From: Verrucomicrobiales bacterium
GTDB taxonomy: Bacteria; Verrucomicrobiota; Verrucomicrobiia; Limisphaerales; CANJXF01
Length of the DNA: 64,000 bases
Reading direction: 5' to 3'
Assembly: GCA_947478865.1 (NCBI GenBank)
Contig: CANJXF010000016.1
Span: 1-64,000 of the forward strand
Shown: positions 35,135-43,337 of the stretch, piece after piece
How positions within the stretch are numbered: position 1 is the first letter of the stretch
Layout of the letters: every line of letters starts with the position of its first letter
Notes under the pieces: model-generated
What the model was told of the DNA's origin: nothing
Database searches by the model: none
Seen by the model: only the letters and a program-made list of their open reading frames with translations
Program-made: the position numbers and the translations under genes

Positions 35135-35156
35135 CCGAGGGTGCGGGTTTGGTGCA
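35135..35156 (-). repeat. 22-bp direct repeat of the hsdS tail, copy 1
   Basis: Exact match to 35646-35667, read on the minus strand as part of a codon string LHQTRTLG. The other copy is inside the hsdS 3' end. Together they flank the DUF1294 gene, so the gene may have been inserted by recombination or the hsdS tail was duplicated. Confidence 0.75.
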
Positions 35157-35213: not shown

Positions 35214-35603
35214 TCATCGTCGGTGGTCCGAGTGCCGCTCGATATAGCTCACCGCGACGTTTGTGTAGCGCCAGTTTTGAAATGAATCGTAGGCCACAAA
35301 CTGGTAGGCCAGCACGATGAACCAAAACACCACTTGATAATTGCGCTTGGAGCATTTGTGGCGCAAGCGGCGTTGCGCGAGATACGCTCCAGGCCAGCCA
35401 CCCAACAACTCCAGCAGATGCAACTGCGCCTCTGGTATGCGCCACAAGCCTTCTTCGGCCCGCCGTTTGTCCACGGCATAAACCCAATAGGCCACCGCAC
35501 TGACGACGAAGGCGTAAATTCCCAGCCATTGATAATCCGGCCCGAGTCGCTGCACGGCGTAAACCGGCAAAGCCAGGAATATAGTGACAACCAGGAGGCT
35601 CAT
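35214..35603 (-). CDS. DUF1294 family membrane protein
   Basis: 129 residues. Two to four membrane segments: MSLLVVTIFLALPVYAV, LGIYAFVVSAVAYWVYAVDK and YQVVFWFIVLAYQFV. The central motif AVDKRRAEEGLWRIPEAQLHLLELLGGWPGA...QRRLRHKCSK is the DUF1294 signature (DK-x3-A...RIPE...LGG-P-A...RHK). The start ATG overlaps the hsdS TGA as ATGA, so translation is probably coupled to the hsdS fragment. Function unknown; chance passenger of the RM locus, between two 22-bp repeats. Confidence 0.85.
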   Translation of the reverse strand: MSLLVVTIFLALPVYAVQRLGPDYQWLGIYAFVVSAVAYWVYAVDKRRAEEGLWRIPEAQLHLLELLGGWPGAYLAQRRLRHKCSKRNYQVVFWFIVLAYQFVAYDSFQNWRYTNVAVSYIERHSDHRR

Positions 35604-36217
35604 GCGGCGAGGAGGTGGTGGAGGGTGGAGTCGAGGAGGTGCGCACCGAGGGTGCGGGTTTGGTGCAACTGCGCTTCCAGCGTGTCGCACCACCGCAGCA
35701 ATTCCTCCACCCGCGCCACGATCCGCTTTTGTTCGGCCAAGGGGGGAAGTGGAAACGGATATTTCCGCAGAAACCCAAGCGAGACGAATGATTGGACGCC
35801 GCCCGCCGTGATGCGTTTCAGCCTCTCAGAAGCGTGAATTAGATACAGATGAAGGAAGCTCGGCTCTGACAAATTCCGGTCGTAATACTTGAACAGGGCG
35901 ACGTTCTTGATGCTGAAATTGGGTTCAACATCCACGATGACTGGGTTGCCAATGCTGCCGATCATTGCAAACAAGATGTCCTCCCGATCAACTTTCGAGC
36001 GGTCGCAGATTTGCCGGTGGTCCTCGGCTGAAATCAACTTCACGTCAGTCAAATCGAGGCGGCCAGTATAAAGGTTCTTGCTAGTTACGAGCGGAAATCC
36101 ATCCGAAACATATTTTGGGCTGTCGTGCGTTCCGTCGCGGACATCAAAAACGTCATTGAGCCTTGTCCATGTCCATGTCTCGGGTAAAGCGGTGTCGCGC
36201 TGCGCTTGCCACCGCAC
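35600..36217 (-). pseudogene. detached 3' half of hsdS (second target-recognition domain)
   Basis: 205 codons starting from a poor GTG. TRD with ALPETWTWTRLNDVFDVRDGT, DLTDVKLISAEDH, GFLRKYPFPLPPLAEQKRIVARVEELL (conserved region helix) and LLDSTLHHLLAA end. No N-terminal half precedes it; upstream DNA is the start of an oppositely oriented hsdS 5' part. Re-inverting the DNA between 36192 and 37366 fuses the two parts in frame (see the inversion finding). As it stands it would be poorly expressed. Confidence 0.75.
35646..35667 (-). repeat. 22-bp direct repeat of the hsdS tail, copy 2
   Basis: Exact copy of 35135-35156 inside the hsdS 3' end (codons LHQTRTLG). Marks a possible duplication end point around the DUF1294 gene. 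Confidence 0.75.
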
Positions 36218-36278
36218 TCCAAGACGCGGCCTGTCTGATTTCAGCTTTCAGAATTTCAGCGTTTCAGTTTTTGCCCCT

Positions 36279-37433
36279 ATGACCCGCGCCACGTTCTTCA
36301 AGCATTTCGAGTTGCTGGCCGACCAACCGGACGCGGTGGCCAAGATGCGCGAGTTGGTTCTGCAACTTGCGGTTCGTGGACAACTCGTTGAGCAAAGCGG
36401 CAAGGACGAGCCAGCACACAAGTTGGTTGATCGCGCTCGGAAGGCATGGACGGAGCGCAAGATTCGTGACCGTGAGAAAAGTGAGGCGCAAGAACCTCCA
36501 CACAAACTGCCCGCCGGTTGGGTTTGGACATGTCTGGATGAAATTGGCGACACGAACCCGCGCAACGAGGCGAACGACAAATCGGAAGTCGGGTTCGTGC
36601 CGATGAAACTGATCTCGGCGGGCTATGGCGAGCCGGTTTCCTTTGAGGTTAAGCCGTGGGGAGAAGTCAAAAAGGGATTCACGCATTTCGCTGACGGTGA
36701 CGTGGTGCTGGCGAAAATCACACCGTGCTTTGAAAACGGAAAGTCTGCGGTGATTCCCAAACTGAAGAACGGCATCGGCGCGGGCACGACCGAGTTGCAT
36801 GTGTTCCGCCAGTATTCAGGCTGCGTCGTGCCTGATTACGTTCTCATTTTCTTCAAGACGCCGAGATTCATCAACGAGGGTGTGCCGCGCATGACTGGCT
36901 CTGCCGGACAAAAGCGCGTTCCCTGGGATTACTTCGCCAACACGCCGTTCCCACTTCCCCCCTTGGCCGAGCAGCGGCGGATTGTGGCCAAGGTGGATGA
37001 GTTGATGGCGTTGTGCGACGAGTTGGAGCAGCGGCAGCAGGCGCGGCAACACGCGCGCGGCCAACTCCAACAATCCACGCTGCATCACCTGCTGTCCGCC
37101 CGCGAGCCGCAAACCTTTGCCGCCGCCTGGCAGCGCGTGCGCGACCATTTCCACCTCCTCCACGACACCCCCGACGCCATCCCCCAACTCCGCCAAGCCA
37201 TCCTCCAACTCGCCGTCCAAGGCCGCCTCGTCCCGCAGAATCCGAAAGATGGAAAAGCGGTTGAACTCCTTGAACAAATCAACGGGGTCAAAACCAAGTT
37301 GGTGAAGGCCAAACAACTCCGAAAAATTGAACAGTTCGGCGTGGTCGGTGATGACGAACAGCCATTCGCTTTCGGATGCGCCCGGAACTTTGAACATCCC
37401 CCAGCCGGAGCGATGCCGTTGAGCGACCGTTGA
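36279..37433 (+). CDS. hsdS: type I restriction specificity subunit HsdS, 5' part, truncated by inversion
   Basis: 384 residues from ATG 36279. First half of HsdS: MTRATFFKHFELLADQPDAVAKMRELVLQLAVRGQLV, TRD1 from ~80 (LPAGWVWTCLDEIGD...), KRVPWDYFANTPFPLPPLAEQRRIV and a coiled coil, then a second conserved block PDAIPQLRQAILQLAVQGRLVPQNPKDG leading to GDDEQPFA. At this point the expected LPxxW of TRD2 is replaced by 20 unrelated codons and a stop. The gene is opposite to hsdM, DUF2726 and hsdR, so it is cut off from their transcript. A half subunit can sometimes act as a dimer, but the orientation suggests an OFF or broken state. Confidence 0.8.
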   Translation: MTRATFFKHFELLADQPDAVAKMRELVLQLAVRGQLVEQSGKDEPAHKLVDRARKAWTERKIRDREKSEAQEPPHKLPAGWVWTCLDEIGDTNPRNEANDKSEVGFVPMKLISAGYGEPVSFEVKPWGEVKKGFTHFADGDVVLAKITPCFENGKSAVIPKLKNGIGAGTTELHVFRQYSGCVVPDYVLIFFKTPRFINEGVPRMTGSAGQKRVPWDYFANTPFPLPPLAEQRRIVAKVDELMALCDELEQRQQARQHARGQLQQSTLHHLLSAREPQTFAAAWQRVRDHFHLLHDTPDAIPQLRQAILQLAVQGRLVPQNPKDGKAVELLEQINGVKTKLVKAKQLRKIEQFGVVGDDEQPFAFGCARNFEHPPAGAMPLSDR

Positions 37434-37442
37434 ATCGCGCCC

Positions 37443-37539
37443 GGAGCGCGGCGTTCACGCCGCTTCGGCTTCCGCAGGACCAGCCGCCAGCGAACATCCA
37501 AGAGTTATTCTCGTTGAAGCGGCATAAATGCCGCGCTCC
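37443..37539. repeat. REP-like element: two hairpins in inverted orientation
   Basis: Two 24-bp units, 37443-37466 and 37516-37539, are reverse complements of each other at 21 of 24 positions; each is itself a hairpin (GCGGCG-TTCA-CGCCGC and GCGGCAT-AA-ATGCCGC). Both outer ends read GGAGCG or its complement. A similar pair occurs at 61867-61932. It fills the gap between the hsdS 5' part and the DUF1016 gene. Confidence 0.75.
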
Positions 37540-37729
37540 TTCGCTTCGGCGGCCATGTCTGGCTTTTTGCATCGTTTTGGCCAAACGGTTCCGGCTTGGC
37601 GTGCGAAAGCGCCGTCGCCGCTGCGCTCTGCCGGCGCAGTCCAAAAGGCGGGAGTGCTGGCTTGTCAGTCGGCTTAACATGCGGTAAACATTTTGCGGCT
37701 TTGGAATGGACTATCCGTTCGGCGAAGGG

Positions 37730-39031
37730 CTACTGGAAATTTCCGGTGGCCTTTCGTTTTTGGGTTTTCCCCTTTTCCTTTCGTTTCGTTTTCTGGGGCC
37801 GCGCACGTCCATCCTGTTGCATTGCCGCCTCCACCCGGTCGCGATCGGCCTCGACGAAGCGCTGGAGTTGCTCGGCGGAAGGCAGCGCGGTGAGGTAGCG
37901 CGAGACAAAGAGTTTGTTGTCCATGCCGGCGGTGGCGAACTGCACCTTGGTGTGGTCTTTGTCGCTGCACAGAATGATGCCCACGGGCGGTTGTTCGTCC
38001 GGGGCGGTGACGTTTTCGCGCCACCAGTTGAGATAAAAATTCATCTGGCCGGCGTCGCCGTGTTTGAAGGCACGGACTTTCAAATCCAGCAGGACGTGGC
38101 AGCGGAGGTGGCGGTGGTAGAAGACGAGGTCAATGTAGTCGTGCTCGTTACCCACGGTGATGCGCCGCTGGCGGGCTTCAAAGAGAAAGCCTGCCCCGAG
38201 TTCGAGGAGGAAGTTCTGGAGATGGTTGAGCAGGGCGGTTTCGAGATCGCTCTCGGTGTATTCGGGCCGCTCGCCGAGGCCGGTGAATTCGAGGACATAG
38301 GGATCGCGGATGAGGTCGGAGATGGTTTCCTGCGGCTCCTGGGCGCGAGCGCGCTTGATGACGGCGGCTTTGTTTTTAGAAAGCCCGGTGCGCTCAAAGA
38401 GCAGCGAGCCGATCTGGCGTTGAAGCTGGCGTTTCGACCAGTTGCCCTTAAGACATTCGTTTTCGTAAAAGGCGCGCTTGAGCGGGTCGTCAATGCGGAT
38501 GAGTTCGATGAGTTGAGTCCATGAGAAATGTAGAACCGCGTTGGCGGACAAGGGCGTGATGTTGCAGAAGGATTTCCGCACCAGTGGTGCGGAAATCTGC
38601 TTTGTCTCTTCGCAAGATTCTGTAACCACTGGTGACAGAATCTGGGAAGTCATTTCGGCAACGGATTTCCTCATCAGTGATGAGGATTTCTTGTCGCCAA
38701 CAGCCTCCAGCAAATGAGCGGTCAATTTCCGCACCACTGGTGCGGAAATCTCGGAGCGGATTTGCGGATAGGCAAAATACACCTGCCGCATCCGCTCGAG
38801 CATGTCTGGACTCGCTCCGCTGACCTTGCGTTTTTTCAGATCGGCGGCGAGACGTGGGAGCAGCCGCGCGCCATACTTGGCTCGGTCCTCACCGTTTTGC
38901 TGGAATTCCACGATGTAGGCACCAATAAGCCAGTTGCGGATAACCAGCGCTTGATTGACGGCGGCGGCGGCCCGCGCCAGCAACTGTTGGCTGGCGGAAT
39001 CAATGGCTTTGACGAGTTGGAGGTATTTCAT
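37730..39031 (-). CDS. DUF1016 (YhcG-like) PDDEXK nuclease-fold protein
   Basis: 433 residues. DUF1016_N with ARAAAAVNQALVIRNWLIGAYIVEFQQNG and SPDMLERMRQVYFAYPQ; DUF1016 C-terminal nuclease-like domain with DPYVLEFTGL, ITVGNEHDYIDLVFYHRHLRCHVLLDLKV (PD-(D/E)xK-like) and NFYLNWWREN. Between them a linker of ~80 residues is made of four palindrome-coded repeats (annotated separately). It sits between hsdM (3-bp gap) and the hsdS position of a type I RM operon. Such proteins are suspected to be nuclease or defence accessories; role here unknown. The Lys-rich end carries QKTKRKEKGKTQKRK. Confidence 0.85.
   Translation of the reverse strand: MKYLQLVKAIDSASQQLLARAAAAVNQALVIRNWLIGAYIVEFQQNGEDRAKYGARLLPRLAADLKKRKVSGASPDMLERMRQVYFAYPQIRSEISAPVVRKLTAHLLEAVGDKKSSSLMRKSVAEMTSQILSPVVTESCEETKQISAPLVRKSFCNITPLSANAVLHFSWTQLIELIRIDDPLKRAFYENECLKGNWSKRQLQRQIGSLLFERTGLSKNKAAVIKRARAQEPQETISDLIRDPYVLEFTGLGERPEYTESDLETALLNHLQNFLLELGAGFLFEARQRRITVGNEHDYIDLVFYHRHLRCHVLLDLKVRAFKHGDAGQMNFYLNWWRENVTAPDEQPPVGIILCSDKDHTKVQFATAGMDNKLFVSRYLTALPSAEQLQRFVEADRDRVEAAMQQDGRARPQKTKRKEKGKTQKRKATGNFQ
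38571..38749 (-). repeat. four in-frame palindromes within the DUF1016 gene
   Basis: Palindromes at 38571-38597 (perfect 13-bp arms), 38615-38643 (one mismatch in 14), 38668-38686 (perfect 9-bp arms) and 38725-38749 (perfect 12-bp arms), each centred on one base. Centres are 45, 48 and 60 bp apart, all multiples of three. They encode similar peptides: SAPVVRK, SSLMRKS, LSPVVTES and SAPLVRKS. The first and last share GCACCA/TGGTGCGGAAAT arms. Confidence 0.88.
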
Positions 39032-39034
39032 GGC

Positions 39035-40468
39035 TCAACGTTCCAGTGCGGACTGCAATTCACGTTTCAGTTTCTCCCGCGTGTCGTTCACGGCTTTGAC
39101 AAGTTGCTGATATTCCAGCAGCAGCTTGTCCGGGTCGGCGTGGCCGGGATCAACGACGTTCGGATTCTTGATGTCGAGGTTGTAGCCGGAGGCTTTGATC
39201 TGCTCGATGGGCACGCGCCAGGCGAGTTCGGATTCTTTGCGTTTCTTCCACCAGGCTTTCTCGGCCTTGAACTCGTCAATGTGGATGGGCTTGGTTTTGT
39301 TGTAGGACTTCACGCCCGGCGGATAGGGGTGTTCGTAATACCAGATTTCCCTGGTCGGCTCGCCTTTGGTGAAGAACAGGAGGTTGGTCTTGATGCCAGT
39401 GTAGGGCGCGAACACGCCGTTGGGCAGGCGGACGATGGTGTGGAGGTTGCACTGGGTGAGCAGTTCCTCCTTGATACGGGTTTTGACGCCTTCGCCAAAG
39501 AGCGTGCCGTCGGGCAGCACAATCGCGCCGCGTCCGCCGTCCTTCATCAGGTGCATGATGAGGACGAGGAACAGGTCGGCGGTTTCCTTGGTGCGGATGG
39601 TGGCGGGGAAATTCTGCTCAATGCCATCTTCCTCCATGCCGCCGAACGGCGGGTTGGTGATGATGACATCCACGCGGTCTTTCGGGCCGTAATCGCGGAG
39701 CGGTCGGGCGAGCGTGTTGTCGTGGCGGATCTGGCTGGGCACTTCGATGCCGTGCAGGAGCATGTTGGTGGTGCAGAGCAGATGCGGCAGCGGCTTCTTT
39801 TCCACGCCGTGGATGGAGGCTTGCAGGATTTCCTCGTCGGCTGGGGTTTTGACGCCCTGCTTGCGGACGTGTTCGATGGCGCAGGTGAGGAAGCCACCCG
39901 TGCCGCACGCGGGATCGAGGATGCGCTCGCCAAGCTGGGGATTGACCATGTCCACCATGAACTGGGTGACGGCGCGGGGGGTGTAGTATTCGCCGGCGTT
40001 GCCCGCGCCTTGCAGGTCGCGGAGGAGTTGCTCGTAGATGTCGCCGAACAGGTGACGGTCGCTGGCGGAGTTGAAATTGACCTCGTTGATCTTGTTGATG
40101 ACCTGCCGGAGGAGCGTGCCGGACTTCATGTAGTTGTAGGCATCCTCAAACGCGGCGCGCAGCACGGCGGCGCGGCCCGTGGTGGCAGTCAGGTTCTTGA
40201 GGTTGCGGAACAGGTCGTTGTTGACGAAGTCGGTCAGTTCGTCGCCGGTGATGCCCTCGGCGTCGGCGGCCCAATTGCGCCAGCGCAAGCGCGAGGGCAG
40301 CGGGGATTTGTAGTTGTCGCGCAGGACTTCGAGTTCGCTTTCGTGATCGTCGAAGATTTTCAGGAAGAGCATCCAGCCAAGCTGCGAGATGCGCTGGGCA
40401 TCGCCATCCACGCCGACATCCTTGCGCATGATGTCTTGGATGGATTTAACGGTGGTGGAGAGGGACAT
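39035..40468 (-). CDS. hsdM: type I restriction-modification DNA methyltransferase (M subunit)
   Basis: 477 residues. N-terminal HsdM_N (ISQLGWMLFLKIFDDHESELE), then GEYYTPRAVTQFMVDMV, motif I DPACGTGGFLTCAIEH (S-adenosylmethionine binding), motif IV NPPFGG (adenine methylation) and a C-terminal QLVKAVNDTREKLKRELQSALER. All catalytic motifs are present. Encoded in order hsdR - DUF2726 - hsdM - DUF1016 - (hsdS) on the minus strand with gaps of 3-5 bp, so one transcript. Length matches the family. Confidence 0.93.
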   Translation of the reverse strand: MSLSTTVKSIQDIMRKDVGVDGDAQRISQLGWMLFLKIFDDHESELEVLRDNYKSPLPSRLRWRNWAADAEGITGDELTDFVNNDLFRNLKNLTATTGRAAVLRAAFEDAYNYMKSGTLLRQVINKINEVNFNSASDRHLFGDIYEQLLRDLQGAGNAGEYYTPRAVTQFMVDMVNPQLGERILDPACGTGGFLTCAIEHVRKQGVKTPADEEILQASIHGVEKKPLPHLLCTTNMLLHGIEVPSQIRHDNTLARPLRDYGPKDRVDVIITNPPFGGMEEDGIEQNFPATIRTKETADLFLVLIMHLMKDGGRGAIVLPDGTLFGEGVKTRIKEELLTQCNLHTIVRLPNGVFAPYTGIKTNLLFFTKGEPTREIWYYEHPYPPGVKSYNKTKPIHIDEFKAEKAWWKKRKESELAWRVPIEQIKASGYNLDIKNPNVVDPGHADPDKLLLEYQQLVKAVNDTREKLKRELQSALER

Positions 40469-40473
40469 GGTGG

Positions 40474-41013
40474 TTATTTGGAACTGGCTGCGGAGGTTTT
40501 GGGGTTAAGGAATGCGGTCAGTTGACTGGATAATTGGACGGTGTCGTAGGTGCGCGCCGCTTTGACCCGCAGCAGCGGGATGCCGGCGGACTGGAGCGCC
40601 TGCTCCAGAAAGCGGTCACGCGCCTGTCGGTCGGCGCGGTCGTGGCTGGCATCGTCCAACTCGACGACGCCGAGGATGGCGAGATCGGATTCCCGACAGA
40701 GGGTGAAGTCCAAGTGCTTGGCGGCGATACGGTTGAAGGCGGATTGAAATACGCGACGATCCGAGCCGGAAGCCGGCGCGATCAAATCGGCCAGCCGGAT
40801 TTTCGGGAAGGCACGGCACTGAGGACTCAACGACATTTCCAGGGCGCCAAAGAACGAACGCTCGGCGGGAGTTAATACTCTTTCGCGAGATTTGTAGCCA
40901 ACGGCTGCCTCCGGCTCGGCGAGAAATTTCTTGAGCAGAACAAGCAGGACAATGACGGCCAGCGCAGCGAACACCAGCACGATCAATTGAGTGGGAATTA
41001 TGGTGGCCATCAT
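40474..41013 (-). CDS. DUF2726 protein with N-terminal membrane helix
   Basis: 179 residues. Membrane helix [23 protein letters not shown], then a DUF2726 nuclease-related region: [66 protein letters not shown] and GIPLLRV. The ELDD...K/R pattern resembles a PD-(D/E)xK relic. Its start overlaps the hsdR stop as ATGA and it is 5 bp before hsdM. DUF2726 genes are frequently carried as passengers in defence loci; no known role. Confidence 0.82.
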
Positions 41014-43337
41014 GGTTTTGCAACAGGGGTATAAAGTTCTTTTTCCAATTCCCGCACGGCTTGCAGATACTTCTCGCGCCCGCCAAAGATCTTCACCAGT
41101 TCAACCGGCGTGCCGAGACGATTGAACGGTTGCACCTTTAGCACGTCCACGGATTCCACCGGCTCAAGCCCTTCGTCGGAGTATTTATCCAGGAGTGCAT
41201 CAAGAACTGCTCGGGCCTGCTCGCCATATTTGGTGAAATAATTACGTTTGCGGACGTTCGCCGCCCGTTCCTTGCGCGTCAGCGGCGGTTGGTCGTAGGC
41301 CACGTGGCAGACCAGATCGAACGGGTCGAAATCACGCCCGACTTCCTCAGCCAGAGCTTCAAGGAAGATGCCGCGCCCGGCAAATTCCTCAACGAGCAGG
41401 CGCTTTTGATCGGCATTGCCCCAGTGATCAATAAATGCATCCAGCGAGGCGAAATTCTTCAGCACGGCTTTGCGCGTGAAATCTTTCAGGGATTCCGTGA
41501 TGGGCTTGCCGTCTTTGTCGAAGTATTGCACCCGCTCGCGCAGAACCATGACTTCGACCTGATCCACGACGTATTTCACGCGGCCATTGGGCGGATCGGG
41601 CAGTGGCGGGTCAACGTCAGCCGGGCCTTCTTCCGGCGGTTCGGGAGGATCATTTGGCCCGGGTTCGTATATCTGGATAGGCGGGCCATCGAAATCTGGA
41701 TCGGCAAACAACTCGGTCGCCTTCTTGAAATCCATGATCGTGAACCAGAGTTTGCCATAATCTTCGTTGATGCGAGTGCCGCGTCCGATGATCTGCTTGA
41801 ACGTGGTCATGGACTCAATGCGCTGGTCGAGGACGATCAATTTGCACGTCTGGGCGTCCACGCCGGTGTTCAGCAGCTTGGAGGTGGTGACGAGGACGGG
41901 ATACCGCTTCTCCGGCAGGATGAAGTTGTCGAGTTCGGCTTTGCCCTCGGGACTGTCGCCGGTGATCCGCATGACATATTTCGCGTCCTGTGCGATTAGA
42001 TCGGCATTTTCGTTCACCAACGCCTGCCGCATTCGCTCGGCGTGGTCAATGTCCTCGCAAAAAATGATGGTCTTGGCAAAGCGGTCGGTGCCTTTGAGAA
42101 ACGCGGTGATGCGCTGCGCGACGAGATGGGTGCGCTTTTCCAGCACCAGCGTCCGGTCCATGTCGCGCTGGTTGTAGATGCGATCCTCGATGGTGTTGCC
42201 GTGCTTGTCCTGCTGCCCCTTGCTGGGCCGCCAGCCAAGAACGTCCTTGTCGATGTCCACCCGCACCACCTTGAACGGTGCGAGGAATCCATCTTCAATT
42301 CCCTGCTTGAGAGAATAACTGAAAATCGGGTCGCCAAAATAATCAATGTTGGAAACCTCCTTAGTTTCCTTGGGCGTGGCCGTGAGGCCGATTTGGGTGG
42401 CGCTGGAAAAGTACTCAAGAATTTGCCGCCACGCAGAATCCTCCGCCGCACTGCCGCGATGACATTCATCCACCACGATGAGATCGAAGAAGTCGCGGGA
42501 GAACTGCTTGTAGATGTTGCTTTCCTCTTCATTGCCGGTCACGGCCTGATAAAGCGAAAGGTAAATTTCGTAGGATTTGTCCACTTCGCGGTTGGTGATC
42601 TTGGTCAGGGACGCGCCAAAGGGTTTGAAATCGTTGGTGCGAGCCTGGTCCACCAGGATGTTGCGGTCAGCGAGGAACAGGATGCGCTTTTTGGCCTTGG
42701 ATTTCCAGAGTCGCCAGATGATCTGGAAGGCAACGTAAGTTTTGCCCGTGCCGGTGGCCATGACGAGCAGGATGCGGTTCTGCCTCTTGGCGATGGCCTC
42801 GATGGTCCGGTTGATGGCGGTGAGCTGATAGTAGCGCGGCGTCTTGTTTTCAGGACTGGGATAATAATCCTGCGTGACGACCGCTTGAATTTCCGGGGGG
42901 ATGTCGCGGCTGGCGCAGTAGCGCTGCCACAATTCCTCGGGCGAAGGAAATTCATCCAGCGTGAGGTGCTTTTCCACCGTCCCGGATTTCACCGTGCGAT
43001 CATGGAACAGGAAGCCATCGCCGTTGGAACTGAAAATGAAGGGAACATCCTTGAGGATGTCCGCATAGCCAAGCCCTTGCTGCATCCCCGCGCCAACGGT
43101 ATGGTTGTTGTCCTTCGCCTCGATGATGGCGAGCGGGAGGTTGGGTTTGTATTACAGCAGGTAGTCCGCTCGTTTGGCTTCACCCCGCCGATAAACACGC
43201 CCCGACACAATAACGCGACCCTTGGTGAGATTGACTTCCTCACGGATTTGCGTCTGCACGTCCCAACCGGCCTTGACCAGTGCCGGGGTGATAAACTTGG
43301 TGCAGATGTCGCGCTCGCTGAGGGTTTTCTTGTTCAT
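41010..43337 (-). pseudogene. hsdR: type I restriction endonuclease R subunit with in-frame TAA at codon 62
   Basis: 775 codons. N-terminal HsdR_N with SERDICTKFITPALVKAGWD, then TAA at 43152-43154 where the family has Tyr (KRADYLL then [17 protein letters not shown]). The nuclease motif EAK follows the stop, so a product reinitiated at ATG 43085 would lack it. The rest is an intact helicase: [11 protein letters not shown] (Walker A), [18 protein letters not shown], and an EcoEI-type C-terminal domain. The original start is ATG 43337. Restriction is probably off, while hsdM remains complete. Confidence 0.85.

Follow-up and report, generated by a model that had tools for sequence, protein, structure and literature searches.

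A precise inversion bounded by a 6-bp microhomology has split hsdS in a type I restriction-modification operon of a Verrucomicrobiales bacterium

The hsdS gene of a type I restriction-modification operon in a Verrucomicrobiales bacterium was broken by a 1,187-bp inversion, and it is well supported that this inversion is real, precise and reciprocal. The window, i.e., the whole stretch of 64,000 nucleotides analysed here, is contig C16 of a draft genome of 114 contigs and 4.40 Mb. The rearrangement is probably a one-off, illegitimate, microhomology-mediated inversion in a decaying operon; we infer a single event, no reversal, a loss of function and the molecular pathway. Both breakpoints can be located to within the 6-bp repeat, and a palindromic element at one of them provides an independent check.

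The operon lies on the minus strand and was composed of four genes beside hsdS, the frames of which are open except that of hsdR:
41010 to 43337, minus strand: hsdR, interrupted in its N-terminal nuclease domain by an in-frame TAA (alignment with six relatives; Pfam matches of the portion past the stop)
40474 to 41013, minus strand: DUF2726 gene, open (Pfam 8e-37)
39035 to 40468, minus strand: hsdM, open (Pfam N6_Mtase 3e-78, HsdM_N 3.9e-14)
37730 to 39031, minus strand: DUF1016/YhcG gene of the PDDEXK nuclease family, open (Pfam YhcG_C 8.5e-54)
As in other type I operons, hsdM encodes both the N6_Mtase and the HsdM_N domain. HsdR does not combine a helicase motor with an intact nuclease domain, and a single hsdS with two TRDs and two conserved regions is obtained only after re-inversion. 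Only two Methylase_S matches are present on the contig, which are both halves of one hsdS. The original order would have been hsdR, DUF2726, hsdM, DUF1016 and hsdS, on the minus strand throughout. Other repeats were also found in these genes. The DUF1016 coding sequence contains a 26-bp perfect inverted repeat (38571-38596 and 38725-38750, GATTTCCGCACCAGTGGTGCGGAAAT), each arm of which is itself nearly palindromic, and a related third copy at 38665-38691. The 3' end of hsdS (the HQTRTLG codons) carries a 22-bp exact direct repeat, at 35135-35156 and 35646-35667; its downstream copy lies 511 bp from the hsdS 3' end, beyond a small membrane-protein-like ORF, and equals the hsdS end of the related locus L013 over 24 bp.

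The two parts of hsdS and the segment between the breakpoints were mapped as follows, with two related loci (L013 and L168) for comparison:
36279 to 37433, plus strand: 5' part of hsdS, with the N-terminus, TRD1 and the central conserved region, 384 aa (Pfam Methylase_S 4.1e-9; homology to L013 and L168)
35600 to 36217, minus strand: 3' part of hsdS, with TRD2 and the distal conserved region, a 205-codon ORF (Pfam Methylase_S 2.6e-18; homology to L168)
36186 to 37372, unstranded: inverted segment, 1,187 bp
36186 to 36191, unstranded: left breakpoint microhomology AAAGCG, the inner tip of the right arm of the palindromic element
37367 to 37372, unstranded: CGCTTT, the microhomology of the right breakpoint, within the hsdS codons immediately 5' of TRD2
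36238 to 36278, plus strand: native hsdS leader, moved with the gene start (36238-36415 is 86.5% identical to L013 7960-8137)
The 384-aa ORF is native to 37372 (codons 1-364) and then runs through 20 foreign codons up to its stop, and the 205-codon ORF is native from 36191, with a GTG start inside the palindromic element. The first-pass annotation had described both hsdS pieces with the coordinates and strands given above and the 6-bp repeat CGCTTT/AAAGCG at both junctions in equal codon phase, all of which proved correct, and its proposed product was reproduced exactly: re-inversion joins ...GDDEQPFA to LPETWTW... in frame and gives an HsdS of exactly 559 codons. The restored join QPF-A-LPETWTW fits the motif PF.(L/I/V)P..W.W found at the same place in intact homologues.

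The 6-bp repeat alone is not significant, as shuffled flanks average 1.7 six-mer matches and 73% of the shuffles contain at least one. Because the repeat is not beyond chance, the breakpoints were tested without using it. Ten other HsdS proteins were used to build an HMM, against which every stop-free in-frame join (5,732 in all) was scored, combining plus-strand piece ends in 37300-37432 with minus-strand piece starts in 36119-36260. The top score was 551.5 bits, reached by exactly seven equivalent joins at CGCTTT and corresponding to the 559-aa protein, and the runner-up scored 549.7 bits; the existing pieces score 347.2 and 188.3 bits against the same HMM. A second in-phase six-mer near the junctions, ATGACG, was rejected as the crossover because the scan peaks at CGCTTT. 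An extension of the TRD2 match to 36313 was discounted as spurious, since beyond the junction it covers the opposite strand of the leader and of the hsdS start, where a stop occurs.

The relatives show hsdS only in the intact arrangement. A search of the own genus and family returned this genome alone, and the closest named relative found at the operon belongs to an uncultured Verrucomicrobia MAG; the one relative recovered by the genome-contig scan is apparently the same contig as G129:C123, with equal length and identical matches. In L168, hsdR, hsdM and hsdS are intact and share one strand. The L168 HsdS, which has the same TRD2 type, aligns with the re-inverted product at 54% identity in one alignment over residues 221-538, crossing the junction at residue 364. 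L013 has an intact HsdS of 560 aa, co-directional with its operon and with different TRDs, and an HsdM that is 96.4% identical (94.2% in DNA). At the DNA level its hsdS is 96% identical in the central conserved region and 93% in the distal region. Forty bp of the leader 5' of the hsdS start are common to L013, which indicates that the inversion carried the leader and the start of the gene together as a single block. In L171, the DUF1016 C-terminus stands directly 5' of hsdS on one strand, which is the order restored here by re-inversion. The split was seen in none of the relatives examined. Between the near-identical hsdM and hsdS, the two operons carry unrelated passengers, the DUF1016 gene here (37730-39031) and a 227-aa ORF in L013 (7024-7707), which is a candidate DUF3800-like gene by its appearance. 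The contigs of three relatives (L048, L050 and L051, on G006:C86, G030:C374 and G009:C13) stop inside hsdM, which points to a tendency of this type of operon to break assemblies, through several copies or strain variants.

The left breakpoint falls in a dispersed palindromic element, which the first-pass annotation had not reported:
36186 to 36221 (36 bp), plus strand: right arm of the element, displaced by the inversion, single copy in the genome
37606 to 37643, minus strand: left arm of the same element, original orientation kept
37443 to 37539, unstranded: second palindromic doublet (inverted repeat I5), between both arms in the restored order, with similar copies in relatives
The element is present in 23 of the 97 genomes searched, this one included. 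Elsewhere it is composed of TGGACTGCGCCGGCAGAGCGCAGCGGCGACGGCGCTTTCG, usually 12-88 bp, and then CGAAAGCGGTGTCGCGCTGCGCTTGCCACCGCAGTCCA, and for 28 of the 41 right arms in the loci examined a left arm lies at most 400 bp upstream. The arms are co-stranded in relatives, and re-inversion here likewise puts both on the minus strand, with the left arm leading, a distance of about 230 bp between them and the second doublet in that interval. The left breakpoint lies at the inner tip of the right arm, so that the element and hsdS were cut by the same inversion, and one reversal mends both. The HMM peak, the L168 alignment across the junction and the return of the arms to one strand, all independent of the 6-bp repeat, thus place the inversion beyond chance. 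The element is absent from the corresponding place in L013. Its dispersal in related genomes, together with its single copy here, suggests that the stretch may derive from another verrucomicrobial lineage.

The element resembles REP doublets of the REPIN/BIME type (PMC3116915, PMC3733652) in its paired, hairpin-like arms in inverted orientation and in being dispersed, here among verrucomicrobial genomes. It differs from them in being single-copy and in that no Y1 (RAYT) transposase, searched as PF01797, was found in this genome. It is extremely improbable that an enzyme acting on the element, such as a REP-associated Y1 transposase that cuts the tip of an arm, made the inversion. The breakpoint does lie exactly at the arm's inner tip, a position common to both arms across relatives, but the genome has only one copy of the element, the other breakpoint is ordinary coding DNA without an arm, and the enzyme itself was not found, though the event could predate the present host. 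Folding of the single arms into hairpins is no better than that of shuffles (z -0.8 and -0.1), so any help of a hairpin at the breakpoint is speculation.

An artefact of assembly or library preparation, with cellular DNA that is not inverted, was also considered, since the genome is a 114-contig draft and a palindromic element common in related genomes could confuse metagenome assembly. We regard this as improbable. Chimeric DNA or misassembly would hardly produce two reciprocal junctions at which no bases were lost or added; the breakpoint outside the element lies in unique coding DNA, and the region contains no N. A multi-copy repeat at the breakpoint that misled the assembler was considered and rejected, because the element occurs only once in the genome.

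In the reading that we prefer, the crossover fell within the 6-bp CGCTTT, between the inner tip of the element upstream of hsdS and the codons joining the central region to TRD2, likely through an illegitimate microhomology-mediated event, i.e., strand switching or end joining. The flip parts TRD1 from TRD2 and turns the hsdS start against the operon transcription, and on these two grounds the normal bipartite recognition would be lost. A single microhomology inversion at a domain boundary can cost a type I system its bipartite recognition, and what is left behind is a half-HsdS like those engineered in the laboratory.

Decay of the system is indicated by hsdR as well. An in-frame TAA at 43154-43152, also new as compared to the first-pass annotation, occupies a column that holds S, C or L in six relatives, and it follows ADY(L/I/V)L and precedes the (I/V)E(A/V)K (E-x-K) nuclease motif. 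The HsdR helicase motor and EcoEI_R_C are present by Pfam, and a restart at the ATG at 43085 would give 691 aa without the nuclease motif. With the stop 5' of this motif, restriction is very probably lost in either orientation of hsdS, and a stop in the nuclease domain argues for a system that is decaying and not switching. The stop could be a sequencing error in the draft genome. Against decay, the other pieces are open, including long frames in both hsdS pieces, which implies that the decay is recent or that some function is left.

The first-pass annotation had proposed an ON/OFF inversion or a rearrangement that switched specificity off. The HMM scan, the L168 alignment and the element arms uphold a rearrangement that broke hsdS, whereas the 6-bp repeat, the lack of a recombinase match on the contig (a further point that was missing from that annotation), the single hsdS and the intact relatives go against the switch. 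Programmed phase variation, in which a recombinase reversibly flips 36186-37372 so that TRD2 is joined or cut off, is thus very unlikely. It would fit the crossover, which is in frame and reciprocal with no base lost, so that re-inversion would restore the full gene, and loci with an inverting hsdS are already known (PMC7394358, PMC4948785). In these loci hsdS is present in several copies, often together with a recombinase (PMC7394358, PMC7096588, PMC4948785), and the repeats of the pneumococcal one are 15, 85 and 33 or 298 bp long (PMC7394358, PMC7096588). Here, however, the repeat at the crossover is only 6 bp and not a perfect inverted repeat of about 15-20 bp or more, and there are no further hsdS copies or spare cassettes at the locus. 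A recombinase gene is usual but not universal at such loci, and no match to PF00589 or PF00239, for a tyrosine or serine recombinase, was present on contig C16. In addition, one crossover site lies inside a dispersed element that L013 lacks at the same place, the hsdR stop would keep restriction off in either state, and no relative carries the inverted form.

The inverted state could also work by itself, with a 384-aa half-HsdS acting as a homodimer with HsdM or pairing with the 205-aa TRD2 piece, which would give methylation only, of a palindromic or the original target. We consider this unlikely. The N-terminus, TRD1 and the complete central conserved region are contained in one open frame of 384 aa, hsdM and both hsdS pieces are open, and an active half-S has been engineered by truncation directly 5' of TRD2 (PMC6158711). 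Truncated HsdS of EcoDXXI and EcoR124I function as homodimers, and co-expressed EcoDXXI halves regain wild-type activity (PMC3874165). Given these engineered half-HsdS and EcoDXXI halves, residual methylation with a changed target is possible. On the other hand, the 5' piece runs against the operon direction, no sigma-70-like promoter was found in 35900-37800 (a weak test), the TRD2 piece is without the N-terminal conserved part, and such homodimers are reported mostly for type IC enzymes (PMC3874165).

The two conserved regions, which had been direct repeats of each other, came to lie as an inverted repeat (83 bp, 78%, with a perfect core of 20 bp), and in this way the inversion created as a by-product a site that could allow a different second flip:
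35733 to 35752, unstranded: first copy of the 20-bp perfect inverted repeat, in the distal conserved region
36951 to 36970, unstranded: second copy of the 20-bp perfect inverted repeat, in the central conserved region
The computed flip at the 20-bp repeat does not restore hsdS but gives a 274-aa half-HsdS (TRD1 and the distal conserved region) in the operon direction. The 83-bp repeat (I1) was also examined as the crossover of the observed inversion and rejected, because it is made of the HsdS conserved regions and its flip gives the 274-aa half gene and not the 559-aa protein. There is little probability that the locus was not silenced but made into a methylation-only methyltransferase with a half- or two-piece HsdS, in which a second flip would lead to the 274-aa half-HsdS. 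If true, an ordinary type I operon would have been set by accident on the way towards an inverting or 'type 1 1/2' system.

Inversions inside hsdS and truncations of hsdS are known kinds of change, and the present locus, read as a one-off inversion, is a well-resolved new case. Like the pneumococcal cod/SpnIII locus (PMC4948785, PMC7096588, PMC7394358), it has an inversion crossover in hsdS at the boundary of the halves, but the repeats are of 6 bp, there is one hsdS as compared to two or three, and no recombinase was found on the contig. In the truncated EcoDXXI (Tn5 insertion), EcoR124I delta-50 (PMC3874165) and the Staphylococcus aureus half-S (PMC6158711), hsdS was cut short in other ways, whereas the break here is an inversion that reverses the gene start; hsdR is also broken, and the half-HsdS is a putative one. 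NgoAV (PMC3874165) shares with it a natural fragmentation of hsdS in which the complete N-terminal half is kept. In NgoAV, several ORFs make up the gene and the palindromic specificity has been tested, whereas the fragments described in this study face opposite directions.
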